This document shows positions 17,078 to 35,895 of a stretch of 64,000 nucleotides of DNA, in pieces. Source of the stretch: Spirosoma luteum DSM 19990. GTDB taxonomy: Bacteria > Bacteroidota > Bacteroidia > Cytophagales > Spirosomataceae. The DNA is taken from the NCBI RefSeq assembly GCF_000374065.1, contig NZ_KB893301.1, forward strand, positions 899 through 64,898, given 5' to 3'. The position numbers and the translations under genes are program-made. Each line of letters begins with the position of its first letter. The stretch's first letter is position 1. The notes under the pieces were generated by a model. The model was not told the origin of the DNA and did no database searches. It saw only the letters and a list, made by a program, of their open reading frames with translations.

Positions 17078-18076
17078 ATGAACCGATTCCTGACCTGTCT
17101 TCTACTAACCACGATTGCCTGCACGGTTGCCAGGGCGCAAACCGGCGAAACCTACGCCGAGAAACTGGGGTTTCCGAAAGGTAAAAAAGTCATTATTCTG
17201 CACGTCGATGATGCGGGGATGAGCTACGAGTCGAACGCGGGGATGATAAACGCGCTGGACAAAGGCATTGCCAATTCCACCAGCGTCATGATGCCCTGCG
17301 GCTGGGTACCCCAGTTTTTCGACTACCTCAAAAAGAAACCCGATACCGATGCGGGCATTCACCTGGCCCTCACCTCGGAGTGGGATAATTACCGGTGGGG
17401 GCCACTGGTGGGCTGTAAGACAGCACCGGGCCTGTGCGATAGTCAGGGGGCTTTATGGCATTCCGTTGCGCAGGTGGTAGAACACGCATCTGCCGATGAG
17501 GTAGAAGCCGAAATTCGGGCGCAACTGGCGCGATACCGGGCATTTGGTATGGAACCCACTCACCTCGATTCGCACATGGGTACCCTCTTCGACCCCAAAT
17601 TCATTATGCGGTACGCCAAAGTGGGCATGGACGAACACATCCCGATTCTGTTTCCGGGCGGACACGCTACGCTGATTTTCAAGGCGAATAACGTACCGGC
17701 CACGATGCAGCAACTGGCACATCAGGTAGGTCAGCAACTGTGGGCAGCCGGACTGCCCGTTTTTGACGACCTCGATGGCACCAGCTACGGCTGGAACCTC
17801 CCCGCCGGAACACCCGTGACGGATGCGAATTTGCAGCAGTATAAAACGAAGAAATACATCGAACTTCTTAATTCTGCCAAACCGGGCCTGACCTACATCA
17901 TTATGCACTGCACGGCCTCCACACCCACCTTCGACCAGATTAGCACGTCTGGTCAGTCGCGCAAAGGGGATATGCTCGCTATGATGGATCCGGCCCTGAA
18001 AGCGTTTATCGAAAAAGAAGGCATCATCGTCACAAACTGGAAGGAGTTGCTGGAACGGCGTAAAAAAGCTAAGTAA
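17078..18076 (+). CDS. secreted ChbG/YdjC-type polysaccharide deacetylase
   Basis: The 332-residue product has a signal peptide (MNRFLTCLLLTTIACTVARA) and the YdjC metal-binding pattern: ILHVDDAGMS at the start of the fold (two Asp), GIHLALTSEW and THLDSHMGTLF (His ligands). The family removes N-acetyl groups from chito-oligosaccharides such as diacetylchitobiose. Secretion suggests a periplasmic carbohydrate. The stop overlaps the LysR gene tail by 8 bp on the opposite strand. Confidence 0.88.
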   Translation: MNRFLTCLLLTTIACTVARAQTGETYAEKLGFPKGKKVIILHVDDAGMSYESNAGMINALDKGIANSTSVMMPCGWVPQFFDYLKKKPDTDAGIHLALTSEWDNYRWGPLVGCKTAPGLCDSQGALWHSVAQVVEHASADEVEAEIRAQLARYRAFGMEPTHLDSHMGTLFDPKFIMRYAKVGMDEHIPILFPGGHATLIFKANNVPATMQQLAHQVGQQLWAAGLPVFDDLDGTSYGWNLPAGTPVTDANLQQYKTKKYIELLNSAKPGLTYIIMHCTASTPTFDQISTSGQSRKGDMLAMMDPALKAFIEKEGIIVTNWKELLERRKKAK

Positions 18077-18995
18077 ATGCCTGGTTTTGGACACTCACTG
18101 GCAATGCGGCCAACTCCCGGACGAGTGGATTGGGTTGGTCGATTCGATGAATGAGGACGTGTTCGATGATTAGCTGTTTGAACGGGGTATCGTCTTCGTT
18201 GATAATCGGCATCGACAGCAGGGCAGGTTCCTGACTCAAATCCAGCGAAGCCGGAATGAAAGCAATCCCTTTGCCCATCCGAACCATACTTTTCAGCAGA
18301 TCGAAGGAAGGCACAACCTGCACAATGTTGCTTTCCCGGTCGACATTGGCCTGCCGGCAAATCTCCTCGATCTGACCGAAAAAAAGCCCGGCTTCCCGCC
18401 CGTGATCAATCCATTTTTCCTGCCGCAACTGCGCCAGTTTAACCGCTGGTTGCGCAGCCAGTGGGTGATTTCGGCTCATCAGGATACTATAGTCAGTTTC
18501 GGCGTACTTGGTGGCCCGTAGCCCTTTCTGCACCAGCGGCAGCACGGTCATACCCAAATCAACCTGCTCCATCGCTACTTTCTCCTGCACCTGCGTGATA
18601 TTGGCCAACTCCACAAGCTGAATTTCCACCGTTGGGAAGTGGGTCGAGAATAAATCGAGCATAGCCATAATTCGTTCCGGCAGAATCAGTTTGAACACGC
18701 CCAGCGTAACCACCTGTTTCTTTGTACCCGTCTGGCGCGCATTCCGAATCGCCTTCTCGCTCAATTGCAGAATCCGCCGTGCTTCGGTCAGGAACCCACT
18801 ACCGGCTTCGGTCAGCTCTACCCGGTGCATCCGGGTCCGCTTGACACCAACAAATAGTTCGACGCCAATTTCGGCCTCCAGTAATTTAATCTGCTGGCTC
18901 AGTGCGGGTTGCGAAATAAATAGTTTCCGGGCGGCCTGACTGAAGTGTAATTCTTCTGCCGCGCCCACAAAGTATCTCAGTTGTCGTAATTCCAT
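18069..18995 (-). CDS. LysR-family regulator, divergent from the hydroxycinnamate operon
   Basis: The 308-residue protein starts MELRQLRYFVGAAEELHFSQ with the LysR helix-turn-helix (AARKLFISQPALSQQIKLLE) and has a periplasmic-binding-like effector domain with LGVFKLILPERI and a MGKGIAFIPASL segment. The CatR/BenM-like start is typical of regulators of aromatic catabolism. It is divergent from the DUF3237-MFS operon, and a T-N11-A dyad sits in the gap at 19039-19053. The inducer is probably a hydroxycinnamoyl-CoA or a hydroxycinnamate; this is inferred from context. Confidence 0.85.
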   Translation of the reverse strand: MELRQLRYFVGAAEELHFSQAARKLFISQPALSQQIKLLEAEIGVELFVGVKRTRMHRVELTEAGSGFLTEARRILQLSEKAIRNARQTGTKKQVVTLGVFKLILPERIMAMLDLFSTHFPTVEIQLVELANITQVQEKVAMEQVDLGMTVLPLVQKGLRATKYAETDYSILMSRNHPLAAQPAVKLAQLRQEKWIDHGREAGLFFGQIEEICRQANVDRESNIVQVVPSFDLLKSMVRMGKGIAFIPASLDLSQEPALLSMPIINEDDTPFKQLIIEHVLIHRIDQPNPLVRELAALPVSVQNQAFT

Positions 18996-19038
18996 GTTTT
19001 GTTGCGCAGTCCTGTGTTCAGTGCGATGTGATGCTTTA

Positions 19039-19053
19039 ATAAGTTTTACTTAT
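19039..19053. promoter_or_regulatory. candidate LysR operator
   Basis: ATAAG-N5-CTTAT is a perfect dyad with T and A separated by 11 nt, the LysR-family signature. It lies in the 136-bp gap between the LysR gene and the divergent operon. Confidence 0.5.
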
Positions 19054-19131: not shown

Positions 19132-19692
19132 ATGAAGAAGACTATACCCCTTATAATTGGGTTACTGATTTGCGTACTCACTCTCTGCTCATCGGGCGGG
19201 GCATGGGCGCAACAGACTAATTCATCCGATTCACCCGTTGCTCCTCAACTGGAATTTGTTTGTTCCCTGCTCGTAAAAATTGCCCCGGCCCTCGTCGTGG
19301 GTGAAACGCCCCACGGTACCCGGCGCATCATTCCCATTACGGGCGGCACGTTCAGCGGCCCTAACATGAAGGGGGAAGTGCTGAACGGTGGGGCCGACTG
19401 GCAGGTTGTCCGGGCCGACGGGGTTGCCGAGCTGGAAGCGCATTATCAGATAAAAACCAACGACGGCATTATCATCTACGTCAAAAATACCGGGTTGCGG
19501 GTAGCCACTCCGTACGTAGCGGCCCGGATTGGCCGGGGAGAGCCGGTGGGCGAAAATGAATACTACTTTCGGGCGGCTCCCAAGTTTGAGGCCCCACCCG
19601 GTAAATACGCCTGGATGAACAACGCGCTCTTCGTCTGCAAAGGCATCCGCAATCCCGATGGCGTAGTCATTCAGGTCTGGAAAGTACTGTAA
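19132..19692 (+). CDS. exported DUF3237 (lipocalin-like barrel) protein
   Basis: The 186-residue product has a signal peptide ending near GAWAQQ. The mature part follows DUF3237: APQLEFVCSLLVKIAPALVVG, TPHGTRRIIPITGGTFSGP, LNGGADWQVVRADGVAELEAHY (read in parts) and TNDGIIIYVKNTGLR, ending in YAWMNNALFVCKG. The fold is a small beta barrel and no reaction is established to my knowledge. As first gene of the hydroxycinnamate operon it may bind the substrate in the periplasm or act on an aromatic ester; both are inference. Confidence 0.8.
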   Translation: MKKTIPLIIGLLICVLTLCSSGGAWAQQTNSSDSPVAPQLEFVCSLLVKIAPALVVGETPHGTRRIIPITGGTFSGPNMKGEVLNGGADWQVVRADGVAELEAHYQIKTNDGIIIYVKNTGLRVATPYVAARIGRGEPVGENEYYFRAAPKFEAPPGKYAWMNNALFVCKGIRNPDGVVIQVWKVL

Positions 19693-19713
19693 TCGCTTCC
19701 TGCTGACAACTAA

Positions 19714-21066
19714 ATGACTATCAATGACCATAAAATGACGACAAATCCCTCCCTCCGCTACGCCTGGTACGTGGTCTTTCTGCTCACGCTGGCCAACATT
19801 TCGTCGTTCATCGACCGGCAGATTCTGAGTCTTCTGGTCAAACCCATCAAGCACGACCTGCACCTGTCTGATACGCAGATGAGTCTGCTGCTGGGGCTGA
19901 GTTTCGCTCTTTTCTACACGCTCTTCGGGGTTATTATCGGGCGGGCCGCCGACCGGTATAGTCGACGGAACATCATTATCGGTGGTATTGCGGTGTGGAG
20001 TCTGATGACCACATTGTGCGGAGGTATCCGCAGTTACGGACAGTTTTTTCTGGCCCGAATGGGCGTTGGAGTGGGTGAAGCAACCCTGTCGCCCTCGGCG
20101 TTTTCTATCCTGGCCGACCTGTTTCCCAAAAACCGGCTGGCTACGGCCCTGAGCCTGTTTTCTATGGGCGTGTTTTTAGGTTCGGGGCTGGCTACGCTGA
20201 TTGGGTCGGGTATTGTGGCCAGCCTGCCTACCGAGGGGCTGGTAACGGTGCCGGTTTTCGGGCAGGTGTTTCCCTGGCAACTGATTTTTCTATACATCGG
20301 CATACCCGGCCTGGTCATTGCCCTGCTGCTGTTTACCGTCAAAGAACCAGCCCGAAAAAATACGCTTCAGGTAGATGGGCAACCGGTTAAACTATCGCTG
20401 GCTGAGTCTTTCGCCATCATTTTCAGCTACCGAAAAGCCTATCTGCTTATCTGTTTCGCTACGGCCTGCCAGGCACTCATCAACTATGGCTGCAACGCCT
20501 GGGTGCCTACGTTTATCAACCGCACTTACGGGTGGGAAGTCCCCCGCGCCGGGGCCTTTTACGGGGGCGTGGTGGTCGTTTCGTCCATTCTGGGCGTGCT
20601 GTTTGGGGGCTGGTACGCCGACAAACTCACCCGCGAAGGCAAAACCGACGGCCGTTTACGGGTGGGCGTACTGGGTATTGCGCTGGCGTTCGCGGCTTTC
20701 TTTACTCCGCTGCTACCCCGCGCCGAATGGGCCTTGCTGGCCATGTCGGTACCCGTGTTTGGTCTGGCCTGTCCGTTCGGGGCCGCTACGGCGGCCATTC
20801 AGGACATCATGCCTAATCAGGTGCGGGCGCTGGCCTCGTCCATTTTCCTGTTCATCCTGAACCTGATTGGCATTGGGCTGGGGCCAACGTCGGTGGCTTT
20901 GTTTACGGATTTCGTTTTTAAAGACGAAAGCCAGATTCGGTACTCGCTGGTACTGCTCTATCTGGTTGGGGGTGGTATGGGTTTGTTGCTCAGTTACCTG
21001 GCCCTGAAACCATACCGGGAAGCGATTGCCAGTCGGGACCGTTTAACCCAGCTGACGGGTGCCTGA
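19714..21066 (+). CDS. MFS transporter, probable hydroxycinnamate or aromatic acid importer
   Basis: The 450-residue protein has 12 predicted membrane segments with the MFS A-like motif GRAADRYSRRNIIIGG between helices 2 and 3 and FIDRQILSLLVKPIKHDL after helix 1, typical of spinster/AAHS-like transporters. A second start at 19735 is equally possible. It begins 22 bp after the DUF3237 gene and is in the same operon. A role in uptake of hydroxycinnamates matches the CouT/PhdT position in other bacteria but is inferred from context. Confidence 0.82.
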   Translation: MTINDHKMTTNPSLRYAWYVVFLLTLANISSFIDRQILSLLVKPIKHDLHLSDTQMSLLLGLSFALFYTLFGVIIGRAADRYSRRNIIIGGIAVWSLMTTLCGGIRSYGQFFLARMGVGVGEATLSPSAFSILADLFPKNRLATALSLFSMGVFLGSGLATLIGSGIVASLPTEGLVTVPVFGQVFPWQLIFLYIGIPGLVIALLLFTVKEPARKNTLQVDGQPVKLSLAESFAIIFSYRKAYLLICFATACQALINYGCNAWVPTFINRTYGWEVPRAGAFYGGVVVVSSILGVLFGGWYADKLTREGKTDGRLRVGVLGIALAFAAFFTPLLPRAEWALLAMSVPVFGLACPFGAATAAIQDIMPNQVRALASSIFLFILNLIGIGLGPTSVALFTDFVFKDESQIRYSLVLLYLVGGGMGLLLSYLALKPYREAIASRDRLTQLTGA

Positions 21067-21131
21067 CGACCCGAATGACCCGGTTGGAAACAGATGCCGG
21101 GCGGTTTCGTCCACGTTTATTCTACATTCCT

Positions 21132-21908
21132 ATGCTTTCATTACCCGATACCATACAAACCACCATTCAGGACAACATTCTGCTCGTTAAACTTAACCGG
21201 CCCGAAAAGCGTAACGCCTTCAATGACGAGTTGGTATTGGCCATAGAGCAGGTTTTTGCCAATGTACCGGCGGGTATTGGCTGTGCCATTATTTACGGCG
21301 AGGGCAAGCATTTCAGTGCCGGGCTGGACCTGTCGGCCCTCACCGAGCGCGACGCTGTGCAGGGATTACACCACTCCCGTATGTGGCACCGCGCCCTCGA
21401 CCGGGTGCAGTTTGGTACGGTGCCGGTCATTGCCGTGTTGAACGGTGCCTGCGTGGGTGGTGGGCTGGAACTGGCCAGTGCCTGCCACATTCGCATAGCC
21501 GAGACATCAACATTCTACGCTCTGCCCGAAGGCCAACGGGGTATTTTTGTGGGTGGTGGCGCGTCCGTACGGGTACCTAAACTCATCGGGCTGGCCCGCA
21601 TGACCGACATGATGCTGACCGGTCGCGTGTACCAGGCCGATGAGGGAATGGCGATTGGCCTGTCGCAGTACGTGACCGACGAGGGAAAAGGGGTGGAGAT
21701 GGCGATGGAACTGGCAAAAAAAGTAGCGTCGAACGCGGGAATGACAAATTACGCGCTCATGCACATCCTGCCCCGCATTGTCGATTCGGCACAGGAGCAG
21801 GGGCTGATGATGGAATCGCTTACGGCAGCTATCGCCCAAAACGCCCCCGAAGCCAAAGCCCGGTTGCAGGAATTTCTGGACGGAAAAGCTAAAAAAGTAG
21901 GCCAATGA
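21132..21908 (+). CDS. crotonase-family hydratase/lyase for hydroxycinnamoyl-CoA
   Basis: The 258-residue enzyme (start at 21132; a longer frame begins at 21075) shows the crotonase fold: LNRPEKRNAFNDEL, oxyanion-hole segments GKHFSAGLDLSAL and GACVGGGLELASACH, and ALPEGQRGIFVGGGASVRV. The last motif is typical of crotonases encoded beside feruloyl-CoA synthases. These hydrate hydroxycinnamoyl-CoA and either cleave it to an aldehyde plus acetyl-CoA or leave the 3-hydroxyacyl-CoA. Which applies here cannot be told from sequence. Its stop overlaps the next start by 4 bp. Confidence 0.85.
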   Translation: MLSLPDTIQTTIQDNILLVKLNRPEKRNAFNDELVLAIEQVFANVPAGIGCAIIYGEGKHFSAGLDLSALTERDAVQGLHHSRMWHRALDRVQFGTVPVIAVLNGACVGGGLELASACHIRIAETSTFYALPEGQRGIFVGGGASVRVPKLIGLARMTDMMLTGRVYQADEGMAIGLSQYVTDEGKGVEMAMELAKKVASNAGMTNYALMHILPRIVDSAQEQGLMMESLTAAIAQNAPEAKARLQEFLDGKAKKVGQ

Positions 21909-23773
21909 ACACGCTGACTGACCTGAAAAACGCCCCCTTCCGGCCCGTTGATACCACCACTGCCGAGGTGCAACAAACCGTTCGCGCCGACGGGACCATC
22001 CTGATTCGGTCGACCGAACCGCTGGCGGCTCATCCGTTTCGCCTGACGGAGCGGCTGTTGCGCTGGGCCACGCACACCTCCAACCGGATTTTTATCGCGC
22101 AGCGACTGCCAACACCCCAGGATGCTCCGTTGGGCGACTGGCGAACGCTTACTTACGCCGAAACCCTGGAGCGGGTACTGCGCCTGGCCCGCTGGCTCCT
22201 GACCACCAACGCTTCGCCCGAACGCCCCATCGCTATCCTGTCCGAAAATAGCATCGAGAATGGGTTACTGAGTCTGGCGGCTTTGCACGTTGGATTACCT
22301 TTATCGATTATTGCCCCCGCCTATTCGCTGCGTTCGGTCGATTTTGACAAACTGCGGCATACGCTGGGGTTGCTTACCCCCGGCCTGATTTTCGTTCAGG
22401 ATGGGCAGACGTACGAGAAAGCCTTACGGGCCACGGCGGGGAATACGGCAATTCTGGTCGTGACCAACCCACCCGTTGGCCTATCCGTTACCCTGTTCGA
22501 TGCTATACTGGATGCCGATGTTGGCGCGTCCACGGATTCTGCCGTTGCGGATGCGTTTGCCCGGATTCGCCCCGAAACGGTGGCGAAGATTCTATTTACA
22601 TCCGGCTCCACGGGTCTGCCGAAAGGCGTTATCAACACCCACGAAAACATTGCCACCAACTGGCAGCAGATCACCCAGACGTTTCCCTTTATGGCCAATG
22701 GCGGGCTGACGCTCATCGACTGGCTTCCCTGGAACCACACGTTTGGCGGTAATCACAACTTCGGACTGACGGTGTACAACGGCGGCACGCTCTACATCGA
22801 CGAGGGCAATCCGACACCGGCGGGCATCGAGACCACCGTTGCCAACCTGCGTCACTGCCAGCCGACTATGTACTGCAATGTGCCCAAAGGGTTTGCCGAC
22901 CTCATCCCATACCTGCGCCGGGACCGGGCTTTACGAGAGAATTTCTTCAGTCAACTGAAACTGCTTTTCTACGCCGGAGCCGGGATGCCGCAGCACACCT
23001 GGGATGCTCTGGAAGAACTGGCGGTCGATACGCTGGGCGAGCGTATTGTTATAGCAACTGGATTGGGTTGTACCGAATCGAGTCCGTCAGCCCTGTTTGC
23101 CTCAAAGGCGGGGGGCTTTGCGGGCTTGCTGGGCGTTCCCGTTCCTAATTTTGACCTCAAATTAGTACCGAACGGAGGAAAGCTGGAAGCCCGGTACCGG
23201 GGCAAAAATGTGATGCCTGGCTACTGGCGTAACCCCGAAGCAACGGCCAGCGCCTTTGATGAAGACGGCTTTTACTGCACCGGTGACGCCCTCCGGTTCG
23301 TTGACCCCCAAGACCCCAACGCGGGCATGGTCTTTGACGGGCGTATTGCCGAAGATTTTAAACTCAGTTCCGGTACCTGGGTGAGCGTGGGTACGTTGCG
23401 GGCCAAGCTGATCGAAGCCGGGCAGGGGCTGTTTACGGATGCCGTCATTACGGGCCACGACCGGGAATTTATCGGTGCTATCGTCTTCCCCGATTTGGTC
23501 CACTGTCGGCAACTTTGCGGACTGGAAGCCCTGACGCTGGCCGACGTGATACAACAGGAAAAGGTGCTGGACGCTCTACAACAGGTACTCGTTGTACTCC
23601 GTAAAGCCAACACGGGCGGCAGTGCCAGCCAGGTGAAAAAGGTTGTTTTTGCGGATTTTCTGCCTTCGATGGACCGGGGCGAAATCACCGACAAAGGCTC
23701 TATCAACCAGCGGGCCGTGCTGGACAATCATCCCGAACTTGTTAACGAACTTTACTGCAACCCGATATTTTGA
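21905..23773 (+). CDS. feruloyl-CoA synthase-like acyl-CoA ligase
   Basis: The 622-residue AMP-forming ligase has the P-loop ILFTSGSTGLPKGV, the motif MPGYWRNPEAT, YCTGDALRF and a C-terminal SGTWVSVGTL segment. The stretches LRSVDFDKLRHTLGLLTP and LPWNHTFGGNHNFGLTVYNG match the feruloyl-CoA synthase branch, which activates ferulate, p-coumarate and caffeate. It is cytoplasmic, sits between the crotonase and a secreted hydrolase with overlapping ends, and starts the degradation route. The ordinary A10 lysine loop near the C-terminus is shortened or altered (DRGEITDKGSINQR contains the Lys). Confidence 0.9.
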   Translation: MNTLTDLKNAPFRPVDTTTAEVQQTVRADGTILIRSTEPLAAHPFRLTERLLRWATHTSNRIFIAQRLPTPQDAPLGDWRTLTYAETLERVLRLARWLLTTNASPERPIAILSENSIENGLLSLAALHVGLPLSIIAPAYSLRSVDFDKLRHTLGLLTPGLIFVQDGQTYEKALRATAGNTAILVVTNPPVGLSVTLFDAILDADVGASTDSAVADAFARIRPETVAKILFTSGSTGLPKGVINTHENIATNWQQITQTFPFMANGGLTLIDWLPWNHTFGGNHNFGLTVYNGGTLYIDEGNPTPAGIETTVANLRHCQPTMYCNVPKGFADLIPYLRRDRALRENFFSQLKLLFYAGAGMPQHTWDALEELAVDTLGERIVIATGLGCTESSPSALFASKAGGFAGLLGVPVPNFDLKLVPNGGKLEARYRGKNVMPGYWRNPEATASAFDEDGFYCTGDALRFVDPQDPNAGMVFDGRIAEDFKLSSGTWVSVGTLRAKLIEAGQGLFTDAVITGHDREFIGAIVFPDLVHCRQLCGLEALTLADVIQQEKVLDALQQVLVVLRKANTGGSASQVKKVVFADFLPSMDRGEITDKGSINQRAVLDNHPELVNELYCNPIF

Positions 23774-24915
23774 TGAAAACGATCAACTTTATAATTCTTT
23801 CCCTCTGGCTATTGACCGGCCTTTCGGCGCTGGCCCAGTCGCCCGCCGTGCGCATCGATTCGGGACGCATTGCCGGGACGAAATACCAGCTAGCGTTCCC
23901 CAAAAACTGGGAAACGGCCAAAACTAAAAAGCTGGTCATGTTTGCGCACGGCTACGAGTTTATGGGGTCGCCCCGGCAGAGCAGTAGTCCGCGCTGGCTT
24001 TTGGTGGTGCAGCCCTTTCTGGATCGGGGATTTGCCGTGGCCGCTTCCGACTATCAGTATCAGGGGTTTGCCCTGCCACAGGGCGTGGACGATACCGAAG
24101 CCTTGCGCCAGCATGTGGTTAAAACCCTGGGCCAGCTCGACACCACCATCATGGTGGGGCAGTCGATGGGCGGTGGCGTGGCGCTGGCTACCCTCGAAAA
24201 CTTCGGGCAGTACTATCAGGGGGCGCTGCCGATGTGCCCGTTTTCGAGCCGCCCTTACCTGCAATGCCGAAAAGAGTTCGACATCTACGCTACCTTCAAC
24301 GGCCTGTTTCCGGGCGTAGCCACACCCCTGACTGAGATTTTCGACCTGTCGAAACCATATCAGGCGCAACCGTTTTCGGCCATGCAGGAAAAAGCTACGG
24401 CAATAAAGAAGGCTATTTTCGCCAAAGATTCTGCCCTGGCCATTGCCTTCGCCAAACGCTACGACCTGAAAATAGACGACCTCCCGCTGTCGCTTTTTTT
24501 CAATGAAAACGTGCTGCGCGACATTGCGCAAAAGGCGAAAGGCAACCCCTTCGATAATACAAACACACTTTACAGCGGCTTTCCTGATGACCTGTTGGTA
24601 AATCAGAAAGCTGAACGGCTGGCAGCAACGGTTAGCCCCGATGTTATTTTTGGGAAGTATGACCGCACGGGTAACATCAGTAAGCCGGTTGTACTGCTCC
24701 ATACCGTGTACGACCAGTTGATTCCTCCTACCTATGGCGTGGTGAACTTCGAAAATATGATCCATCAGCAGGGGAAAGACGCGCTTTTTGTGGTGAAGTA
24801 CACCAATGGGCAAGGTCACTGCCAGTTTAAACCCAAGCAGGTGGGTAGTGCTTTCGATGCCCTGCGGCAATGGCTGGCTACCGGTCAGAAAGCAAAACCA
24901 GGATTTATAGACTGA
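23773..24915 (+). CDS. secreted alpha/beta hydrolase (possible hydroxycinnamate ester hydrolase)
   Basis: The 380-residue product has a signal peptide (MKTINFIILSLWLLTGLSALAQ). It is an alpha/beta hydrolase with the oxyanion HGYEFMGSP region, the nucleophile elbow VGQSMGGGVAL and a C-terminal catalytic His in NGQGHCQF. The first base of its ATG is the last base of the ligase stop, so it is tightly coupled. Context suggests release of hydroxycinnamates from esters such as chlorogenate or feruloylated sugars. It has no clear similarity I can name to characterised feruloyl esterases, so this is inference. A repeat hairpin begins at its stop codon. Confidence 0.72.
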   Translation: MKTINFIILSLWLLTGLSALAQSPAVRIDSGRIAGTKYQLAFPKNWETAKTKKLVMFAHGYEFMGSPRQSSSPRWLLVVQPFLDRGFAVAASDYQYQGFALPQGVDDTEALRQHVVKTLGQLDTTIMVGQSMGGGVALATLENFGQYYQGALPMCPFSSRPYLQCRKEFDIYATFNGLFPGVATPLTEIFDLSKPYQAQPFSAMQEKATAIKKAIFAKDSALAIAFAKRYDLKIDDLPLSLFFNENVLRDIAQKAKGNPFDNTNTLYSGFPDDLLVNQKAERLAATVSPDVIFGKYDRTGNISKPVVLLHTVYDQLIPPTYGVVNFENMIHQQGKDALFVVKYTNGQGHCQFKPKQVGSAFDALRQWLATGQKAKPGFID

Positions 24916-25021
24916 GTGAAAGAGCGAAAGAGTGAAAGCCATCCGGCGGTTTTTGCTTCGACAGTCGAGTTGATTTCTTTCTGCATTGGTGGCACTCATT
25001 CACTCTATCGCTCTTTCACTC
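24914..25021. repeat. GAGYGAAA-word hairpin, copy 1
   Basis: The left arm (24914-24938) is three degenerate octamers, GAGTGAAA GAGCGAAA GAGTGAAA. The right arm (24997-25021) is its complement with 2 mismatches in 25. The left arm starts within the stop codon of the hydrolase. Additional complementary words continue to 25038. A related copy lies at 28360-28440. Confidence 0.8.
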
Positions 25022-25047
25022 ATTAACTCTTTCACTCTTTATTACTT

Positions 25048-26157: not shown

Positions 26158-26170
26158 CAACCATATTATT

Positions 26171-26220: not shown

Positions 26221-26240
26221 TTACTCAATAACTGGAAATT

Positions 26241-28355: not shown

Positions 28356-28359
28356 AGGA

Positions 28360-28440
28360 TGAAAGAGCGAAAGAGTAAATGAGCGAAAGAGTGAAAGAAT
28401 TGCTGACGCATTACTAATCATTCACTCATTCGTTCTTTCA
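28360..28440. repeat. GAGYGAAA-word hairpin, copy 2
   Basis: The left arm (28360-28381) reads TGAAAGAGCGAAAGAGTAAA and the right arm (28419-28440) is its complement with 3 mismatches. A further direct copy (GAGCGAAAGAGTGAAAG) lies between. The right arm ends in the stop codon of the CoA-transferase gene. The element fills the whole gap before pcaF. Confidence 0.8.
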
Positions 28441-29775
28441 CTCGTTGAACATTGCTGTTGTTTTGGCGCGTACATCGTCCAGCGTAGCGCCGGGCATTAA
28501 CTCCATCAAGGTTAATTTACCATCTGGATAGGCGAATACGGCTAAGTCTGTGATAATCATACTCACTACGCCCGTTGCCGTGAGGGGTAGCGTACAATAA
28601 GGAACAATCTTGGACGACCCATCGGGATTGGTGTGGGTCATAGTAATAATAAGGCGTTTCGCTCCTATGGCCAGGTCCATTGCTCCACCCACCCCCAGCA
28701 GGGGTTTACCCGGAACGGCCCAGTTAGCCAGATTGGCCGCTTCGTCTACTTCCAGCCCGCCCATAATGGCTACGTCGATATGGCCTCCCCGAATCATGGC
28801 GAAGGATTCAGCACTGTCAAAATAGCTGCTTCCTTTCAGGGCTGTCACCGGAATTTTTCCGGCGTTTACCGGATAATGCATCGCCCCTCCGCCATCGGCT
28901 GGGACGGGACCAACACCCAGCATCCCGTTTTCGGTGTGCAGCAAAATACTGTGTTCGTCGGTAATCAGGTCGGCCACCAGCGTTGGAATACCGATGCCCA
29001 GGTTGACCACATCGCCTTTTTTGAGTTCGGCCAGTGCCCGTCGGGCCATGTTCATCCGGAGTTCGTCCACTTTTTTGGATGTCGAAACCGACGCCGAACT
29101 ACCCAGATCGGCCAGCGTCAGAGTTGCCTGTACCAGATAATCGACAAAGCAGCCGGGCGTGTGGACATTTTCCGGCGCAATCTGCCCAACGGGAACAATT
29201 TCCTCTACTTCAACGATAACGGTATCGGCGGCTGTCGCCATTGCCTTGTTGAAGTTATTTTCGGTCATGCGGTACTGAAGATTACCCGCTGTATCGGCCC
29301 GCCAGGCCCGGATAAAGGCGACGTTGGCCCGGATACTTTTGACAAATACCTGCTCCACCCCGTCGATAACCTTCGTCTCGCGTCCATCGGCCAGCGGGGT
29401 TCCCGCCGAGGTAGGGGTGTAAAACCCACCGATGCCCGCTCCACCCGCCCGGATGGCTTCGGCCAGGGTTCCCTGCGGCAGTAGTTCATACGCCACCTGA
29501 CCACTCTGGGCGGCTTTCACGGCGTCGGGGTTAGAGGTGAAAAACGACCCAATCATCCGGCGTATCTGCCCATTCCGTAGCAAACGCCCGCCCCCCATGC
29601 CTACTTCGCCCACATTATTACCGACGAACGTGAGGTTTTTTGTGCCGATTTCGGCCAGTGCGTGCATCAAGTGAACCGGGTTGCCCGTCATGCCAAATCC
29701 GCCCTGTAGGAGTGTATCGCCGTCTTTTACCAGTGCAGCCGCCTGTTCCAGCGTTACTATGGGTACTGTTTTCAT
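28438..29775 (-). CDS. pcaIJ: fused 3-oxoadipate CoA-transferase (PcaI-PcaJ)
   Basis: The enzyme moves CoA from succinyl-CoA to beta-ketoadipate. The 445-residue product joins both subunits: an alpha part with [19 protein letters not shown] and [14 protein letters not shown], then a beta part from about residue 230 with [20 protein letters not shown] and the catalytic glutamate in [12 protein letters not shown]. Separate PcaI and PcaJ are more common. The family also includes succinyl-CoA:3-ketoacid transferases, so the substrate comes from context. It overlaps pobA by 4 bp. Confidence 0.87.
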
Positions 29776-31007
29776 GCGTGAAATGTTGTTGATTGTCCGT
29801 GCTCACTACCCGTTACCCCTGTCGCCCAGCTGGCTGCAAGACCCACGTAGTTTTCGGCTATAACCGTTGAAGCGGCTTCACTATTGACTAATTGATTGAA
29901 TCGGGATGCCTGCAAATGCGCATCGAAGGATGATTTGGTTGAATCACGGTGCAGCATATCCGTCATGAAGTTGGAGAATTCCTGCACCCGCCACACCCGA
30001 CGCATGCAGCCCGCCGTGTAGGCATCCAACTCCAACGAACTTCCGGCCTGATACCAGCGCATGAGTGCATCGAACAGGTAGCCCGTGTCGGCAACGGCCA
30101 TGTTCAGTCCTTTGGCACCCGTTGGGGGGACGATATGGGCCGAATCGCCCGCCAGAAAAAGCCGGCCGAACTGCATGGGTTCGCTCACGAAGCTACGCAT
30201 GGGGGTAATGGTTTTTTCCAGAATCGGCCCTTCTGCTAATGTCCACCCGGCGGTTCCCAGCCGAAGCTGGAGTTCAGCCCAGATCCGCTCGTCGGGCCAG
30301 TCGTCCAGCGTATCCGTCACGTCGCACTGCACGTAGAGCCGGGATATTTCGGGCGAACGCATGCTGTGCAGGGCAAAGCCCCGGTCGTGATAGGCATAGA
30401 TTAATTCATCGGTGGAGGGTGGAACTTTGGCCAGGATACCCAGCCAGCAGTACGGGTAAACTTTATCATAAGTAGTGGTCAAATGAGCCGGAATCGCCTG
30501 CCGGGCAATGCCGTGAAACCCGTCGCAGCCCGCTACAAAATCGCAGATGAGCGTGTGGTTTTCGCCCTGATGCGTGTAATGGATGGCGGGCGCGTACCCG
30601 TCCAGCCCATCGATGGCGGTGGCTTCGGCTTCAAACAAAATAGACTGCTCATCCTCATGCAGGCGTAGTTGAATCAGGTCTTTGACTACCTCCGTTTGGG
30701 CGTAAATCGTAACGCGGGAGCCGCCGGTCAGGTGGGCCAGGTCAATGCGGTGCCGGTGGCCATTGTAGCTCAGGATAACCCCATCGTGCACGAGTCCTTC
30801 GCGGTCGAGCCGGTCGGTGGCACCTGCCTGCCGGAGCCGGTCGACGGTGTTTTGTTCGAGTAACCCCGCCCGCTGTCGGCTTTCGACCCGTTGACGCGGT
30901 CTGTTTTCCAGCACCACCGAGTTGATGCCCTGTGTATGCAGCAGTTGCGCGAGCAACAGACCCGACGGCCCGGCTCCGATGATACCTACCTGCGTGTGAT
31001 GGTTCAT
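29772..31007 (-). CDS. pobA: 4-hydroxybenzoate 3-monooxygenase
   Basis: PobA is an FAD enzyme that uses NAD(P)H and oxygen to hydroxylate 4-hydroxybenzoate to protocatechuate. The 411-residue product shows the FAD site [37 protein letters not shown], the GCDGFHG segment and [18 protein letters not shown]-type [18 protein letters not shown]. Its length exceeds the usual ~394 by a C-terminal tail ([21 protein letters not shown], 20-residue class). It lies inside the pca operon with 4-bp overlaps on both sides, so its product feeds the next enzymes directly. Confidence 0.94.
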
Positions 31008-32170
31008 TCGTCGGTATTGTTAAGGACTTCGCTGGCCGCGTGAAAAGCCGCATTAGCGGCTGGTAAACCACAATATAGAGCCGAGTGCATAATTACCTCC
31101 TTTATTTCGTCCGGTGTAACCCCATTGTTAAGGGCGGCCCGAACGTGCATTTTGAATTCGGTTTCGCGGTTCAGCGCAATGAGCATACCCAGCGTGATCA
31201 GACTGCGTTGATGCCGGGATAAACCGGGGCGCGTCCAGATTTCCCCCCACGCGTAGCGGGTAATGAAATCCTGGAAATCAGCCGTAAAGTCGGTGATGCC
31301 CGCGTTGGCCCGGTCTACGTGCGCATCGCCCAGTACGGCCCGGCGCACGGCCATACCAGCTTCGTACGCAGGCTGATTTGGAGAGAGTTCGGAATCGGCC
31401 AAAAACGTGTTCAGGGTACGGGCAAAAGCGTCGGCCACTTCAACCGCCGACAGGTGAGCAGCGGGTAGTTCAACCAGCCGGGCATTGGGAATAGCATCCT
31501 GCATAAATTGCCCATCAGATACGGTCGTTACCGGGTCTTGCGTTCCCGTTATCACGAGAGTTGGCGCGTTGATACGCCGGATAGTCTCCCGGAAATCGGC
31601 ATCCCGGATGGCCATGCAGCAGGCCACATACCCCGTCTTTGTGGTGGCCTTGAACTGATTGAGCAGGCGGGTGCGCACATCGGGATTGTTTCGGCTATAT
31701 TCGGGGGTAAGCCAGCGGTCCAGGGCGGCATCGGCAATGGCCGAAACTCCGTGTTGGCTAACGGTTTCTATGCGTTCATTCCAACTATCCAGCGTACCGA
31801 TTTTAGCGGCTGTATTGCTGAGAATCAGCTTGTCGATGCGTTCCGGGTGATGAATGGCCAGCCATTGGCCGATTAAACCGCCCATCGATAGTCCGCAAAA
31901 AATTACCCGTGGAATGGATAGTGCATCCAGCAAAGCAACGACATCCGTTCCCAAATCGGTTATGGTAACGGGTCCGACCGAAGCGGGCGTCTGGCCGTGC
32001 CCCCTTGTATCGTACCGCAGTACCCGGAGCGAAGGAGTTAACTGGTTCACCACGGCATCCCACATGGTTAGGTCAGCCCCCAGGGAATTGGAAAATACCA
32101 GTACTGGTCCCTGTGCCGGGCCGTCGAGCTGGTAATGCATCCGGTTTCCGTTGATTTTTCTTTCAGGCAT
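31004..32170 (-). CDS. pcaL: fused beta-ketoadipate enol-lactone hydrolase / 4-carboxymuconolactone decarboxylase
   Basis: The protein does two adjacent steps: residues 1-~260 are an alpha/beta hydrolase (PcaD) with FCGLSMGGLIGQW as nucleophile elbow and PAAHLSAVE with the His, and residues ~265-388 are the carboxymuconolactone decarboxylase (PcaC) with TRPGLSRHQRSLITLGML and HVRAALNNGVTPDEIKEV. This D-C order is known as PcaL in actinobacteria. The chemistry converts 4-carboxymuconolactone to beta-ketoadipate. It overlaps pobA by 4 bp and is 4 bp after pcaB. Confidence 0.92.
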   Translation of the reverse strand: MPERKINGNRMHYQLDGPAQGPVLVFSNSLGADLTMWDAVVNQLTPSLRVLRYDTRGHGQTPASVGPVTITDLGTDVVALLDALSIPRVIFCGLSMGGLIGQWLAIHHPERIDKLILSNTAAKIGTLDSWNERIETVSQHGVSAIADAALDRWLTPEYSRNNPDVRTRLLNQFKATTKTGYVACCMAIRDADFRETIRRINAPTLVITGTQDPVTTVSDGQFMQDAIPNARLVELPAAHLSAVEVADAFARTLNTFLADSELSPNQPAYEAGMAVRRAVLGDAHVDRANAGITDFTADFQDFITRYAWGEIWTRPGLSRHQRSLITLGMLIALNRETEFKMHVRAALNNGVTPDEIKEVIMHSALYCGLPAANAAFHAASEVLNNTDE

Positions 32171-32174: not shown

Positions 32175-33257
32175 TCAGTCAGGTACGGTACTATTTTGCT
32201 TCATTCGTTCTGTATCCACCTCAAGGGTACGGATTAATTCGTTGGCATGGGACAGGTTAGCCGCTGTTAGCCGAACCAGGTCGCGCATAACGGGCCACTC
32301 GCTATGCCAGGCACCGGCCGCCCGCTCGTGCGGTTGTACCATAGCGCCCAGCATACTCGCCACCAGGCCGGGCGTGCGGTGCGCAATGGCAACCATAAAC
32401 GTACTGCTAACGGGGTTGCGCTTGTGCGGCATGGACGACGACCCGCCTTTACCGTCGGCGGCACCCTCCCGAACTTCCCCCACTTCGGTTTGCATGAGCA
32501 GGATAATGTCGTTGCCCAGTTTTCCCAGTGACCCGTTCAGGATGCCGAGCGTTGCGGCTATGTCGGCCAGCCGGTCGCGCTGGGTGTGCCAGGCATAGGG
32601 CGTATTGCCTACTCCCAGTAGTTCGGCCATCCGCGCCCGAATGGCGGAACCGCGTTCACCGAGCGAAACGCTATTGCCTACCGGACCACCCAACTGAATC
32701 TCGATACACTCGTTTTCAACACGCTTTACCCGTTCAGCCGTCCGTAGTAATCCATCCAGCCAGCCCGTTACTTTGTCGCCAAAGGTGATGGGCAGTGCCT
32801 GCTGGAGCAGCGTTCGCCCCATCATGGGTGTATGTTCATGGGCTTTAGCCAGAATCGCCAACTGGTTGGTTAGCTGGTTAAGATCAGCCTGACATTGCAC
32901 CAATCCCTGCTTCAACTGCATCATCAGCACCGTATCGATAACATCCTGACTGGTAGCTCCCTGATGAACATAGTGAACAGCTTCGGGATGTTCCTGACGT
33001 ACCCGCTCTTTCAGTGCCGAAACAAACGGGATAGCCGGGTTACCCGCCAGCAGCGTCTGTTGTCGTATGGATTCCGTGTCCCAGTTGGTTTGCCGACAAA
33101 TGTCGGCGATAGTCGCTGCCGCTTCTGCGGGGATAACGCCCGCTATCCCCTGAGCCGTGGCCAGTGCAGATTCAAAAGCCAGCATAAGCCGTAGTTCCGT
33201 TGCGTCCGAAAAAACAGTCTCAATCGGTGGGGTAGAGAAAATCAGGTCAGCGAGCAT
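32175..33257 (-). CDS. pcaB: 3-carboxy-cis,cis-muconate cycloisomerase
   Basis: PcaB turns 3-carboxymuconate into 4-carboxymuconolactone. The 360-residue product is a fumarase/aspartase-superfamily enzyme with the signature GGSSSMPHKRNPVSS, HQGATSQDVIDT and PGLVASMLG. The start MLADLIFSTPPIETVFSD (33257) matches the family; a longer frame reaching 33371 would overlap pcaG. It is shorter than many PcaB proteins, lacking the usual C-terminal extension. Confidence 0.92.
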   Translation of the reverse strand: MLADLIFSTPPIETVFSDATELRLMLAFESALATAQGIAGVIPAEAAATIADICRQTNWDTESIRQQTLLAGNPAIPFVSALKERVRQEHPEAVHYVHQGATSQDVIDTVLMMQLKQGLVQCQADLNQLTNQLAILAKAHEHTPMMGRTLLQQALPITFGDKVTGWLDGLLRTAERVKRVENECIEIQLGGPVGNSVSLGERGSAIRARMAELLGVGNTPYAWHTQRDRLADIAATLGILNGSLGKLGNDIILLMQTEVGEVREGAADGKGGSSSMPHKRNPVSSTFMVAIAHRTPGLVASMLGAMVQPHERAAGAWHSEWPVMRDLVRLTAANLSHANELIRTLEVDTERMKQNSTVPD

Positions 33258-33300
33258 CGTCTGGATACTAAGTGAAGGGCAAGGTACGAATCCGCTCCGG

Positions 33301-33906
33301 TTAGAGTTCGAAAAATACGGTTTCGTCCGACCCCTGCATATGAATATCGAAGATGTAGCGAATTTCGCCATTCACCTCTTTCCGGTGAGCCAGCAGTGTG
33401 GCCCGCCGTTCGGCCGGAACGGCGTTTAACAGGATGTCCTGGGCATTGGCTTCCGGTTCATCGGCAAAGTACAGACGGGTGTACAGATTCCGTAATGAGC
33501 CGCGCATCATCAGCATAACGTTTATGTGGGGGGCCGACCCTTCGCCTGTGGCACCGGGCTTGAGGGTTGTAAACTGGTACCGATGGCCGGGCAGCGTACC
33601 CGTTCCCACCCGACCAAAACCCAGAAAGCCCCGGTCGGTATGGGTAGCGGTATTACCTTCAATGGGTGCCGTGCGGTAATGACCCTGCGCGTCGGCCTGC
33701 CAGAGTTCAACCACGGCATCGGAAATGGTTGCTCCCGCACCGTCCCATACCTGCCCCGTCACAACAATTCGCTGTCCGGGTGTATCGAGGCTAACCAGTG
33801 TATGATTCATCAAACTATCGTAGGGATAGCCATACTGCTCGGCGGTCAGGGCATAAGCAAAAAAAGGTCCGACTGTTTGGGACGGTGTTTGTCGTAGCTG
33901 TTCCAT
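33301..33906 (-). CDS. pcaG: protocatechuate 3,4-dioxygenase alpha subunit
   Basis: The 201-residue subunit pairs with PcaH to open the protocatechuate ring between the hydroxyls. The pattern LRQTPSQTVGPFFAYAL, VTGQVWDGAGATISDAVVELWQ and HINVMLMMRGSLRNLYTRLYF is that of PcaG, which lacks the iron ligands of the beta subunit. Its ATG overlaps the pcaH stop by one base (TAATG), a typical coupling for a 1:1 complex. Confidence 0.94.
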   Translation of the reverse strand: MEQLRQTPSQTVGPFFAYALTAEQYGYPYDSLMNHTLVSLDTPGQRIVVTGQVWDGAGATISDAVVELWQADAQGHYRTAPIEGNTATHTDRGFLGFGRVGTGTLPGHRYQFTTLKPGATGEGSAPHINVMLMMRGSLRNLYTRLYFADEPEANAQDILLNAVPAERRATLLAHRKEVNGEIRYIFDIHMQGSDETVFFEL

Positions 33907-34631
33907 TACTCAAAGGGGGTCTTGTGGCGGCCATTCAGAACGATATCGAACTGGTAGGCCAGGGCAAATTCGGCCTCGGTCCAGTCCATCCGGAATTTGG
34001 CAATCAACAGCTCGCGGGCGTGCTGCGGAACCGATTGGAAAATCGGGTCGTAGTCAAACAGCGGGTCGCCGGGGAAGTACATCTGGGTAACCAGTCGATG
34101 TTCGAACTGATGCCCAATTACGGAAAAATGGATGTGATTCGGCCGCCAGGCGTTGTAATGATTTCCCCAGGGATAAGCACCCGGCTTGATCGTATGAAAG
34201 GCGTAGTTGCCATCGGCATCCGTCAGCACGCGTCCTCCGCCCAGGAAATTAGGGTCCAGGGGGGCGTCGTGAATTTCGGCTTTGTGAACGTACCGACCCG
34301 CCGAATTGGCCTGCCATAGTTCGATGAGCACATTGGACAGGGGACGCCCCGTTTCATCCAGCACCCGACCGGCTACTTTGATACGCTCGCCGATTGGTTC
34401 GCCGTTGATGCGGGCGTTTTTGGTCAGGTCGTTATCAAATTCGCGCAGCACCGACTGACCAAAAACTGGCATACTCAAATCGCGAATCAACTCCCGTACC
34501 GGCATGAGCGGTTGGGTCGGGCTACGCAGAATGGTCGATTTATAAGCGGGCGACAGGTGCGGTGGATGAACGTCGGCGCTGGATACCGGTGCTGCTAACG
34601 GGGGCAGGGATGTTTTATTCAAGGCTTCCAT
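33906..34631 (-). CDS. pcaH: protocatechuate 3,4-dioxygenase beta subunit (iron-binding)
   Basis: The 241-residue subunit carries the non-heme Fe(III) site: GAYPWGNHYNAWRPNHIHFS contains the tyrosine and histidine ligands (Tyr, Tyr, HIH), followed by RLVTQMYFPGDPLFDYDP. Upstream are IKVAGRVLDETGRPLSNVLIELWQ (read in parts) and the N-terminal basic linker. It is the first gene of the pca operon. The long N-terminal segment of ~45 residues is typical of the beta subunit. Confidence 0.95.
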   Translation of the reverse strand: MEALNKTSLPPLAAPVSSADVHPPHLSPAYKSTILRSPTQPLMPVRELIRDLSMPVFGQSVLREFDNDLTKNARINGEPIGERIKVAGRVLDETGRPLSNVLIELWQANSAGRYVHKAEIHDAPLDPNFLGGGRVLTDADGNYAFHTIKPGAYPWGNHYNAWRPNHIHFSVIGHQFEHRLVTQMYFPGDPLFDYDPIFQSVPQHARELLIAKFRMDWTEAEFALAYQFDIVLNGRHKTPFE

Positions 34632-34959
34632 ACGGGTAATTATTCTCCGAAAGGTAGGTTTAGCAGGGCGACGTAGTTGCTTAAAAGAAAGCGCCTGCTT
34701 GTGTTTTGTAAATGTATTGGTTTGGGTGCGGCATTACTTGGCAAATCGGACAAAAGACTAGCACAAAACAAACATAACTAAAAACAGATAAAATTTACTT
34801 ATTTTTAATTTGGGCGGCAGATTGAACTCGTTCATCGTAAGTGGCTGATTATTATCAGTTTTAAATGATAAATTTTGGGTGAGTAACCTGCTGCCGTAAT
34901 CCGGTTGATCGCTATTTTGTCTAATACAAACATGGTAAAGAAGAGAAAGTAGTGATACG
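34632..34959. promoter_or_regulatory. divergent control region pcaH / AraC regulator
   Basis: 328 bp, AT-rich in the centre. The dyad CTGAT-N4-ATCAG (34845-34858) is a candidate regulator site. On the minus strand TATGTTTG (34769-34776) fits the -7 element for the pca operon, but I see no good -33 element for it. No gene is present. Confidence 0.45.
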
Positions 34960-35895
34960 ATGGATAAATTGCCCGCCCTTATGGATACTACATTAGCTGC
35001 TTACGGCCTTTACGGGGAGAAATACGAACCGCGTCTGCCAGATTTTGTGCATAGTGAACTACACGAAACCCGGTGCAAACAGTACGGCTGGGTAATCAGT
35101 CCGCACATCCATACCAACTTAGTTCAAATCGTACTGATCGAAGCCGGGGAGGCTGCGTTTACGGCAGGTTCGCAAACTATCACGCTGAAAGAACCCTGCC
35201 TGATTACCATGCCGGTGGACGTTTTGCACGGGTACGTATTTAGTCCGGATGTGAAAGGGGTTGTCATTTCGCTGGCCGATTCCTATCCGGAAGCCCTGTT
35301 TCGCAACTCGCCAGCTGTGCTGCTGGAACTGGGTCGGATGCAGTTGATTCGGGCCAGTCAGGACCCGGAGACTTTCAGGCAACTAGCCGCTCTGGCCTGG
35401 CAGGTGCACACGGAATTGTATGCCAATTTACCCGAGCGTATGGTCTCGCTACAAGCCTGTTTGAGTTTACTGCTGGTTAACGTGTATCGGGTGGTTCACC
35501 GGCAGGCGGCTGATGCACTGGCCGTTGACAACCGGAGTCTTCAGTATTTCCGGCAATTCCAGCAGCTTCTGAAAGAAAACCTACTGCATCGGCTGACCAT
35601 AACTGATTACGCCCGCCTGATGGGCATTACCGCGGTTCACCTGAATCGGGTATGCCGGTCGGTAGTGGGTAAATCGACGTTGCAGACGATTCAGGAAGCC
35701 ATCCTGCTGGAAGCGAAGCGGTATCTGCACCATTCTTCCTATTCTATTTCTGAGATTTCGTACCTGCTGAACTTCGATGATATTAGTTATTTCTCCCGCC
35801 TGTTCAAAAAGCAACTGGGCGTATCGCCCCGGCAGTTCAGAGAGCAGGCTACCCGGTTGAGCGTAATGGGCAAACAGGAGCCAGGGTCAGTCTGA
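34960..35895 (+). CDS. AraC-family regulator, divergent from the pca operon
   Basis: The 311-residue protein has a cupin-like sensor domain (YGWVISPHIHTNLVQIVLIE, then GYVFSPDVKG) and a C-terminal double helix-turn-helix (RLTITDYARLMGITAVHLN and SISEISYLLNFDDISYFSRL, ending KQLGVSPRQFRE). AraC proteins of this type (PobC, PcaQ-like position) activate 4-hydroxybenzoate and protocatechuate operons. Orientation and spacing support control of pcaH-F; the effector is not known. Confidence 0.83.
   Translation: MDKLPALMDTTLAAYGLYGEKYEPRLPDFVHSELHETRCKQYGWVISPHIHTNLVQIVLIEAGEAAFTAGSQTITLKEPCLITMPVDVLHGYVFSPDVKGVVISLADSYPEALFRNSPAVLLELGRMQLIRASQDPETFRQLAALAWQVHTELYANLPERMVSLQACLSLLLVNVYRVVHRQAADALAVDNRSLQYFRQFQQLLKENLLHRLTITDYARLMGITAVHLNRVCRSVVGKSTLQTIQEAILLEAKRYLHHSSYSISEISYLLNFDDISYFSRLFKKQLGVSPRQFREQATRLSVMGKQEPGSV

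Follow-up and report, generated by a model that had tools for sequence, protein, structure and literature searches.

A hydroxycinnamate and protocatechuate island in Spirosoma luteum with a core MetE-type methyltransferase as a candidate vanillate O-demethylase

The island described here lies in a 64,000-nucleotide window from the genome of Spirosoma luteum DSM 19990 (6.6 Mb), and consists of a forward operon (19132-27134) and a reverse operon (34631 down to 27150) that would together funnel plant hydroxycinnamates into central metabolism, with some methoxyl-linked role for MetE2 (25048-26157, + strand), a core MetE-type methyltransferase. We put the probability of this reading, whose reactions and substrates are inferred, at roughly two in three. 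The observed island is real and belongs to a known kind of pathway, here in a Bacteroidota genome, and MetE2 is its most unusual gene. All coordinates are those of the whole 64,000-nucleotide window; functions were read from the sequence, and the open reading frames (ORFs) were checked against their positions. In the proposed pathway an exported esterase would probably free the hydroxycinnamic acid from an ester, a carrier of the major facilitator superfamily (MFS) would import the acid and a CoA ligase would activate it; a crotonase would hydrate the side chain, a short-chain dehydrogenase (SDR) encoded elsewhere would oxidise it, and an amidohydrolase would release acetyl-CoA together with 4-hydroxybenzoate, protocatechuate or vanillate. 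The first two of these acids would be carried by PobA and the Pca enzymes to acetyl-CoA and succinyl-CoA, and MetE2 would handle the methoxyl group of the ferulate and vanillate branch, most likely by passing the vanillate methyl to homocysteine to give protocatechuate and methionine.

The protocatechuate branch of the beta-ketoadipate pathway is complete, with PcaHG, PcaB, PcaC, PcaD, PcaIJ and PcaF all above curated cut-offs in one operon of seven reverse-strand ORFs. From the upstream end these are PcaH (protocatechuate 3,4-dioxygenase beta, 33906-34631; TIGR02422, 334.1 against a cut-off of 296.4), PcaG (the alpha subunit, 33301-33906; TIGR02423, 213.8 against 126.25), PcaB (carboxymuconate cycloisomerase, 32175-33371; TIGR02426, 392.8 against 355.75), a PcaDC fusion of enol-lactonase and carboxymuconolactone decarboxylase (31004-32170; NF051488, 514.5 against 390), PobA (4-hydroxybenzoate 3-monooxygenase, 29772-31007; PRK08243, 578.6 against a subfamily cut-off of 351), a PcaI-PcaJ fusion (3-oxoadipate CoA-transferase, 28438-29775; TIGR02429 and TIGR02428 both above cut-off in one ORF) and PcaF (3-oxoadipyl-CoA thiolase, 27150-28421; TIGR02430, 625.2 against 597). 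PobA falls under the narrower equivalog cut-off of TIGR02360 (509.7 against 538.7). Alignment to the main family models starts at residue 37 or 41 in the pcaB ORF and at 23 or 25 in the pcaF ORF; the 71-bp overlap of pcaB with pcaG and the long PcaF N-terminus arise because the ORFs were called from upstream start codons, and the true PcaB start is probably at about 33266. The initial annotation had read this operon as the route from 4-hydroxybenzoate via protocatechuate to acetyl-CoA and succinyl-CoA, and family models for all of its steps bear that out.

The CoA-dependent steps are assigned to three forward-strand ORFs: a crotonase-fold enoyl-CoA hydratase (ech, 21075-21908; PRK08150, 387.9 against a cut-off of 232), a hydroxycinnamate (feruloyl or coumaroyl) CoA ligase (fcs, 21905-23773; best match PRK12582) and an Amidohydrolase_2 protein (amh, 26241-27134; PF04909), a candidate 4-hydroxyphenyl-beta-ketoacyl-CoA hydrolase of the CouO type. 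The ligase is 33-48% identical to places in 29 plasmid records, nine of which are annotated as feruloyl-CoA synthase. Ligase loci were compared over stretches of about 20 kb in the window and 40 relatives from the family, with gene calls in the relatives greedy by length, so that small genes may have escaped. In these 41 loci the ligase is accompanied by a crotonase in 39, the amidohydrolase in 38, an esterase-like gene (F5) in 37, MetE2 in 34, the DUF3237 gene (F7) in 28 and an SDR in 24, and by a hand count pca or pobA genes also lie in the stretches of 16 of the 40 relatives. The recurrence of the crotonase and the amidohydrolase puts the linkage of the forward genes beyond chance, and the synteny that the initial annotation had proposed to look for is thus present in related genomes. 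Its further picture of a compact, transferable unit is borne out as regards linkage, which is kept in relatives; gene order is reshuffled from genus to genus, however, and the reverse operon can persist where the forward one has been lost, as in Spirosoma spitsbergense (below).

The amidohydrolase points to the way in which the side chain is shortened. It is 75.7% identical to a Pseudomonas putida plasmid protein and about 63-66% identical to plasmid proteins of Rhizobium, Paraburkholderia, Terrarubrum, Streptomyces and Paracoccus. The counterpart in Rhizobium sp. Q54 (64.9%) is annotated as a 4-hydroxyphenyl-beta-ketoacyl-CoA hydrolase and lies near genes for feruloyl-CoA synthase, enoyl-CoA hydratase, 3-hydroxy-2-methylbutyryl-CoA dehydrogenase and acyl-CoA dehydrogenase; amidohydrolase, crotonase and feruloyl-CoA synthase are consecutive on the Terrarubrum plasmid, and the Paracoccus plasmid cluster holds an AMP-binding protein, crotonase, amidohydrolase, acyl-CoA dehydrogenase and SDR. 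The Rhizobium cluster, too, has an SDR close to its ligase and hydratase genes. On the P. putida plasmid (L081, 1280-9870) the 76% identical amidohydrolase stands with biotin carboxylase, HAD-like and acetoacetate-CoA ligase genes, a set that we take to resemble an aryl-ketone degradation cluster. By relatedness, the window's amidohydrolase is a candidate for the beta-keto hydrolase of deacetylation. In Rhodococcus RHA1 deacetylation is described as ending with the amidohydrolase CouO, whose product is the aromatic acid (PMC4737184). Because of this analogy and the 65% identity to an annotated beta-ketoacyl-CoA hydrolase, we prefer beta-oxidative deacetylation of the Rhodococcus Cou type, in which ligase, hydratase, dehydrogenase and hydrolase most likely act in turn.

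The dehydrogenase of this route is the step that the island lacks. In the 24 family loci with an SDR, the gene is next after the ligase or separated from it by one ORF, and none is present in the window's island; on contig 3 of the same genome there is a candidate SDR 64% identical to the clustered one (the next best is 32%), whose neighbours appear by eye to lie outside the hydroxycinnamate pathway. Since the SDR linked to the ligase in those relatives lies elsewhere in S. luteum, the island does not suffice by itself. The functional island of the initial annotation therefore stands as a link between hydroxycinnamate activation and the full protocatechuate branch but not as a self-contained unit, and its forward operon has the gene content for hydroxycinnamate activation, with the side-chain chemistry now most likely beta-oxidative and the amidohydrolase-type beta-keto hydrolase acting last.

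An aldehyde (vanillin) route was considered first and was then demoted for the recurrent amidohydrolase and SDR. In that scheme, of the CouAB or Fcs-Ech kind, the crotonase would cleave the hydrated CoA ester to 4-hydroxybenzaldehyde or vanillin, and an unlinked aldehyde dehydrogenase would oxidise the product. The best solved relative of the crotonase is 3hin (E 1.8e-88), which suggests a CouA-like enzyme if the link to CouA that we assume is right, and the solved relative of the DUF3237 protein, 3c5o, is named RPA1785; we take both to come from the couA/couB region of Rhodopseudomonas, so that the crotonase and DUF3237 proteins would be what the island shares with the Rhodopseudomonas palustris cluster. 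That couAB cluster is described as non-beta-oxidative and, unlike the island, has the MarR-type CouR and other transporters (PMC3610893). Against the scheme stand the frequent amidohydrolase (38 of 41 loci) and the SDR behind the ligase (24 of 41), and no aldehyde dehydrogenase is evident by eye in the operon, the genome not having been searched for one. We regard an aldehyde route as improbable and keep beta-oxidative deacetylation.

MetE2 (PRK06520, 447.8 against a cut-off of 313) has 369 residues and comprises the catalytic MetE half alone; the N-terminal half of canonical, folate-dependent MetE is absent. Conservation was read from 79 of 81 MetE2 sequences and ten outgroups (for L191 and L215 the greedy gene call gave no MetE2 ORF). 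The HxC...C zinc-motif residues H240, C242 and C336, together with S14, E65 and D190, are kept in at least 97% of the 79 MetE2 rows and in all ten outgroups; S14, E65 and D190 stand at what we take, from MetE structures, to be homocysteine-site positions. On this motif and these positions MetE2 is a candidate MetE-type zinc methyltransferase, with the zinc predicted. F71, H114, Q119 and N193 are invariant in 79/79 MetE2 rows and found in 0/10 outgroups, where positions 71, 114 and 119 are occupied mostly by large hydrophobic residues; a donor pocket that has changed would show such a pattern. The predicted MetE2 model has a mean pLDDT of 81.9, falling below 50 at 87-101, 278-280 and 339-342, and because of these stretches the acidic zinc ligand is not placeable in it. 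Its best fold match is 1ypx (E 1.8e-25), followed by MetE structures with zinc, homocysteine or methyl-folate, and more weakly by UroD and a Methanosarcina methyltransferase. Thiolates demethylate aryl methyl ethers in the laboratory, and by analogy attack of the homocysteine thiolate on an aryl methyl ether is plausible.

The zinc motif, the homocysteine-site positions and the closest fold, that of the MetE core, would also suit an ordinary methionine synthase or a folate-recycling helper for one-carbon balance, the true demethylase being an enzyme of some other kind or one encoded elsewhere. Several features tell against this: the N-terminal MetE half is missing, Phe146 of MetE2 aligns with E. 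coli MetE Trp561, a residue that we take to stack on folate, and the genome holds a second MetE-core protein. There is, moreover, no need for a plain methionine synthase to co-occur with fcs or to have its gene placed between pcaG and pcaB. The helper has a parallel in the Agrobacterium ferulate cluster, where Atu1418, a proposed methyl-tetrahydrofolate recycler, lies beside a folate-dependent demethylase (PMC7797058), but no LigM-type source of methyl-folate was seen in 150 family genomes. We consider such a housekeeping role rather unlikely, and continue with a methoxyl-linked role for MetE2.

The distribution of MetE2 follows that of the ligase closely. Among the 150 family genomes (S. luteum included, with the ligase counted at E up to 1e-60), the ligase occurs in 43 and MetE2 in 45: 41 have both, two the ligase only (G019 and G044), four MetE2 only (G002, G038, G089 and G117) and 103 neither (Fisher p about 1e-29, a figure that ignores the kinship of the genomes). 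Within ten genera the ligase varies, and MetE2 varies along with it in eight, three of which also hold MetE2-only genomes; in the other two a ligase-bearing genome (G019 or G044) is without MetE2. A phylum-wide draw gave the ligase and MetE2 each in three of 395 genomes, the same three and all Spirosomataceae; this sample understates the spread, since named MetE2 loci also come from Saprospiraceae, Chitinophagaceae, Sphingobacteriaceae and Lewinellaceae. One genome of the window's genus may hold the cluster in a state of decay (L145; G089:C1:283338-284434): its MetE2 is divided between two frames, and alongside are a 47% ligase match, amidohydrolase and esterase genes and matB/madM. Genes encoding a malonyl-CoA synthetase-like protein and the malonate transporter MadL/MadM are found repeatedly in the vicinity of MetE2 and the ligase cluster (L032, L033, L138 and L141), and three family genomes have MetE2 close to genes for a P450, a SARP-like regulator and a PEP-dikinase-like protein (L138, L139 and L142; assigned by eye except for the P450).

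The genomic surroundings of MetE2 tie it to the protocatechuate pathway. We surveyed 80 named MetE2 loci (the best 80 of 291) over up to 10 kb on each side, less at contig ends, counting a neighbour at 40% identity or more, or at 33% or more for pcaDC, pcaB, pcaG and pcaH. Genes of the pca/pobA or fcs/ech/amh sets are present at 60 of the 80 (47 of 56 in Bacteroidota and 13 of 24 elsewhere), and 17 have pca/pobA genes without the ligase set. In Chloroflexota metE2 directly follows pcaG in L206, L208, L209 and L211, and in L206 and L211 it lies between pcaG and pcaB; in Salinisphaera hydrothermalis (L212) it stands directly behind a pobA-like ORF. By MetE2, the named locus closest to the window among these best 80 is that of S. 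spitsbergense, where the order is ydjC, MetE2, pca operon, AraC, ygiQ, and where the genes from lysR to the ligase, abh and the amidohydrolase gene are gone from the locus. About 0.3 kb before MetE2 holds two in-order fragments of the esterase gene abh (E 2e-9 and 4e-4), so the forward-operon genes were lost there and not ancestrally absent. MetE2 itself is intact beside pca, 95.7% identical, with the lowest dN/dS (0.032) of the nine genes compared. In this respect MetE2 tracks pca and not merely the CoA steps, as judged from these gene neighbourhoods.

In the MetE2 tree the members that bear labels of other phyla, apart from L190, fall outside a well-supported Bacteroidota group; several outgroup branches are very long, and false joins are possible. 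Four sequences labelled Gammaproteobacteria, Spirosoma fluviale MAG, Cellulophaga and Flavobacterium (L190, L203, L179 and L151) branch inside other Bacteroidota groups and are possible mislabelled bins or transfers. Among remoter relatives, a 46% identical MetE-like gene on a Pantoea piersonii plasmid (L231, 4986-6101) follows galB, aldolase, 4-oxalomesaconate tautomerase and oxidoreductase genes, an arrangement hinting at demethylation of 3-O-methylgallate or syringate. The Klebsiella relatives precede urea-transport genes. Around five others no annotated gene concerns aromatic compounds, and two more lie in unannotated stretches; the PRK06520 family at large is thus not uniformly catabolic.

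If ferulate is the substrate, vanillate needs demethylation to reach protocatechuate, and the known demethylase families were sought. No match to VanA_C (PF19112) was found in the S. luteum genome. Across the family sample this model is matched in ten of 150 genomes, strongly in one (G019, 1.6e-47) and at E about 1e-16 to 1e-4 in the other nine, whose proteins share about 25-31% identity with a portion of the G019 protein. In G019, which like G044 has the ligase and no MetE2, the pca operon lies about 3 kb from a VanA-like (360 aa) and a VanB-like (323 aa) gene. Five Rieske matches in the S. luteum genome, in frames of 556, 136, 158, 184 and 176 aa, were set aside, the longest being ferredoxin-reductase-like by eye. 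For LigM/DesA, its single GCV_T protein is gcvT by sequence, and no second full GcvT-family protein of the LigM type was found in the 150 family genomes, 148 of which have a GCV_T match (partial in G097, as two pieces on two contigs, and in G025, as one piece). The S. luteum GcvT as query finds solved LigM at E about 2e-12, which suggests that a LigM would have been seen by the family model. P450 enzymes of the GcoA or PbdA type were rejected, at least one P450 being present in all 18 genomes of the genus with or without the ligase, and none in 15 of the 41 family genomes that have both ligase and MetE2. By these searches no canonical demethylase candidate is left in the S. luteum genome, and MetE2 is the only methyl-group enzyme in the forward operon.

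A number of findings weigh against a catabolic role for MetE2 or against the wider scheme. The ligase scores 701.7 with PRK12582, below the cut-off of 777. NCBIfam gives neither G019 protein a VanA or VanB name, so that these names come from PF19112 and the gene pairing, and the other ligase-only genome, G044, has no PF19112 match; replacement of MetE2 by VanA is therefore seen in G019 alone. Six of the 41 genomes with ligase and MetE2 carry a weakly VanA-like Rieske protein (four at E about 1e-15, two at about 1e-4), and with these matches a weakly related Rieske demethylase is possible in those six; for DmtS, whose identity to VanA is about 27% only, O-demethylase function is backed by genetic evidence (PMC8091115). 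The S. luteum genome has one P450, on another contig, and at one locus in Chloroflexota (L209) vanA-like and vanB-like genes lie close to metE2. G002 and G038 carry MetE2 without the ligase, near an MFS carrier, malonate genes, a regulator and a P450. Twenty of the 80 named MetE2 loci have no pca/pobA or fcs/ech/amh gene in the stretch covered, and at three of the 17 pca-only loci (L190, L214 and L215) the assignment comes from one match each, which is distant or partial. In the tree, Salinisphaera is joined by nine of the ten outgroup rows (99/95), so that MetE2 as sampled does not appear as one clade.

The MetE2 genes near malonate genes and a P450 without fcs would also agree with natural substrates that are unmethoxylated, such as p-coumarate, caffeate or chlorogenate, MetE2 having some other job, for example with another plant methyl compound; the exported esterase-like gene likewise suits ester substrates. 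This explanation would leave unaccounted for both the retention of MetE2 beside pca after the CoA pathway genes were lost from the S. spitsbergense locus and the VanA-like gene in G019, which lacks metE2, and we think it unlikely. A more specific form of the methoxyl-linked role, which we put forward tentatively and at somewhat less than even odds, is that MetE2 founds a new class of aromatic O-demethylase, a MetE-core zinc enzyme in which the homocysteine thiolate would take the methyl group of vanillate (perhaps also of 3-O-methylgallate or syringate). Equally tentatively, protocatechuate and methionine would be released without oxygen, heme, Rieske centre, folate or corrinoid. With the same reserve, the enzyme may have accompanied the protocatechuate pathway in a spread over Bacteroidota, Chloroflexota and Salinisphaera, and a remoter relative would end the Pantoea gallate operon. 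No description of a MetE-type vanillate demethylase turned up in our searches of open-licence papers.

The island resembles several described systems in part. Like the cou system of Rhodococcus jostii RHA1 it would combine CoA activation and beta-oxidative deacetylation, with an amidohydrolase last, to give an aromatic acid that enters the beta-ketoadipate pathway (PMC4737184), with CouO likened to the window's amidohydrolase by description and not by sequence comparison. It differs in phylum, in having a LysR-type regulator where RHA1 has the MarR-type CouR, in its unlinked SDR and in the presence of MetE2. The Agrobacterium fabrum SpG8-1b cluster (Atu1415-1422) would share feruloyl-CoA synthase, enoyl-CoA hydratase, dehydrogenase, a beta-keto step and demethylation followed by pca; unlike the island, it is described with a beta-keto-thiolase, Atu1421, as the last deacetylation enzyme, with MarR and GntR regulators, and with a folate-dependent demethylase, Atu1420, of a family found here only as gcvT (PMC7797058). 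MesA-MesD and Dehalococcoides core-MetE also consist of the catalytic MetE half only and have the HxC...C zinc motif (PMC7857596, PMC7005905), whereas MetE2 belongs to PRK06520, with 1ypx as nearest solved structure, and is set apart from MesA-D by description; aromatic catabolism, to which MetE2 is linked here, is a term absent from the main text of both sources. VanAB, LigM/DesA and the P450 O-demethylases would do the same job, vanillate to protocatechuate, by Rieske, folate/GcvT or heme chemistry in contrast to a MetE fold with a zinc motif.

The remaining genes complete the layout. The two operons converge tail-to-tail at 27134/27150 with a gap of 15 bp, and each has its own divergent regulator: a LysR-type protein (18069-18995, - strand; PF03466 and PF00126) next to the forward operon, and an AraC-type protein (34960-35895, + strand; HTH_18, with HpaA the best named relative, below cut-off) next to the pca operon. 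Coordinates and strands in the ORF list agree here with the initial annotation; the 1-4 bp overlaps that it had emphasised are present at five junctions (ech/fcs, fcs/abh, pcaIJ/pobA, pobA/pcaDC and pcaG/pcaH), with looser spacing of 132 bp between abh and metE2 and 83 bp between metE2 and amh. The forward operon opens with the DUF3237 protein (19132-19692, + strand; PF11578), probably exported as judged by eye. DUF3237 proteins are frequent companions of hydroxycinnamate clusters in more than one phylum, sometimes beside an FAD monooxygenase. The MFS transporter (19714-21066, + strand; PF07690, with TIGR00893 and TIGR00895 matched below their cut-offs) is the likely uptake system. The alpha/beta hydrolase (abh, 23770-24915, + strand), probably exported as judged by eye, is a candidate hydroxycinnamoyl esterase, with all its alpha/beta-hydrolase matches below cut-off and solved relatives at E about 0.008 only. 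After the island, at 38156-42878, genes that by eye encode the small and large subunits of ethanolamine ammonia-lyase, a permease and an AraC regulator form a possible ethanolamine-use unit.

The hydroxycinnamate and protocatechuate pathway is known mainly from Proteobacteria and Actinobacteria, and the island is a well-preserved Bacteroidota version of it; with MetE2 present and none of the known demethylases found, it is a variation on a known pathway, and should MetE2 itself be the demethylase, that would be an enzyme of an entirely new category. Lignin bioconversion is often held back at aryl O-demethylation (PMC6021390). Of the demethylase families considered here, some depend on folate and the others on oxygen together with a Rieske centre or heme. 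If a zinc-thiolate enzyme converted the waste methyl group directly into methionine, it would be independent of oxygen and need no electron-transfer partner. Genes labelled methionine synthase II may then be misnamed catabolic enzymes, and a possible use of ferulate and vanillate by Spirosomataceae, and by other groups where no VanAB or LigM was found here, would be explained.

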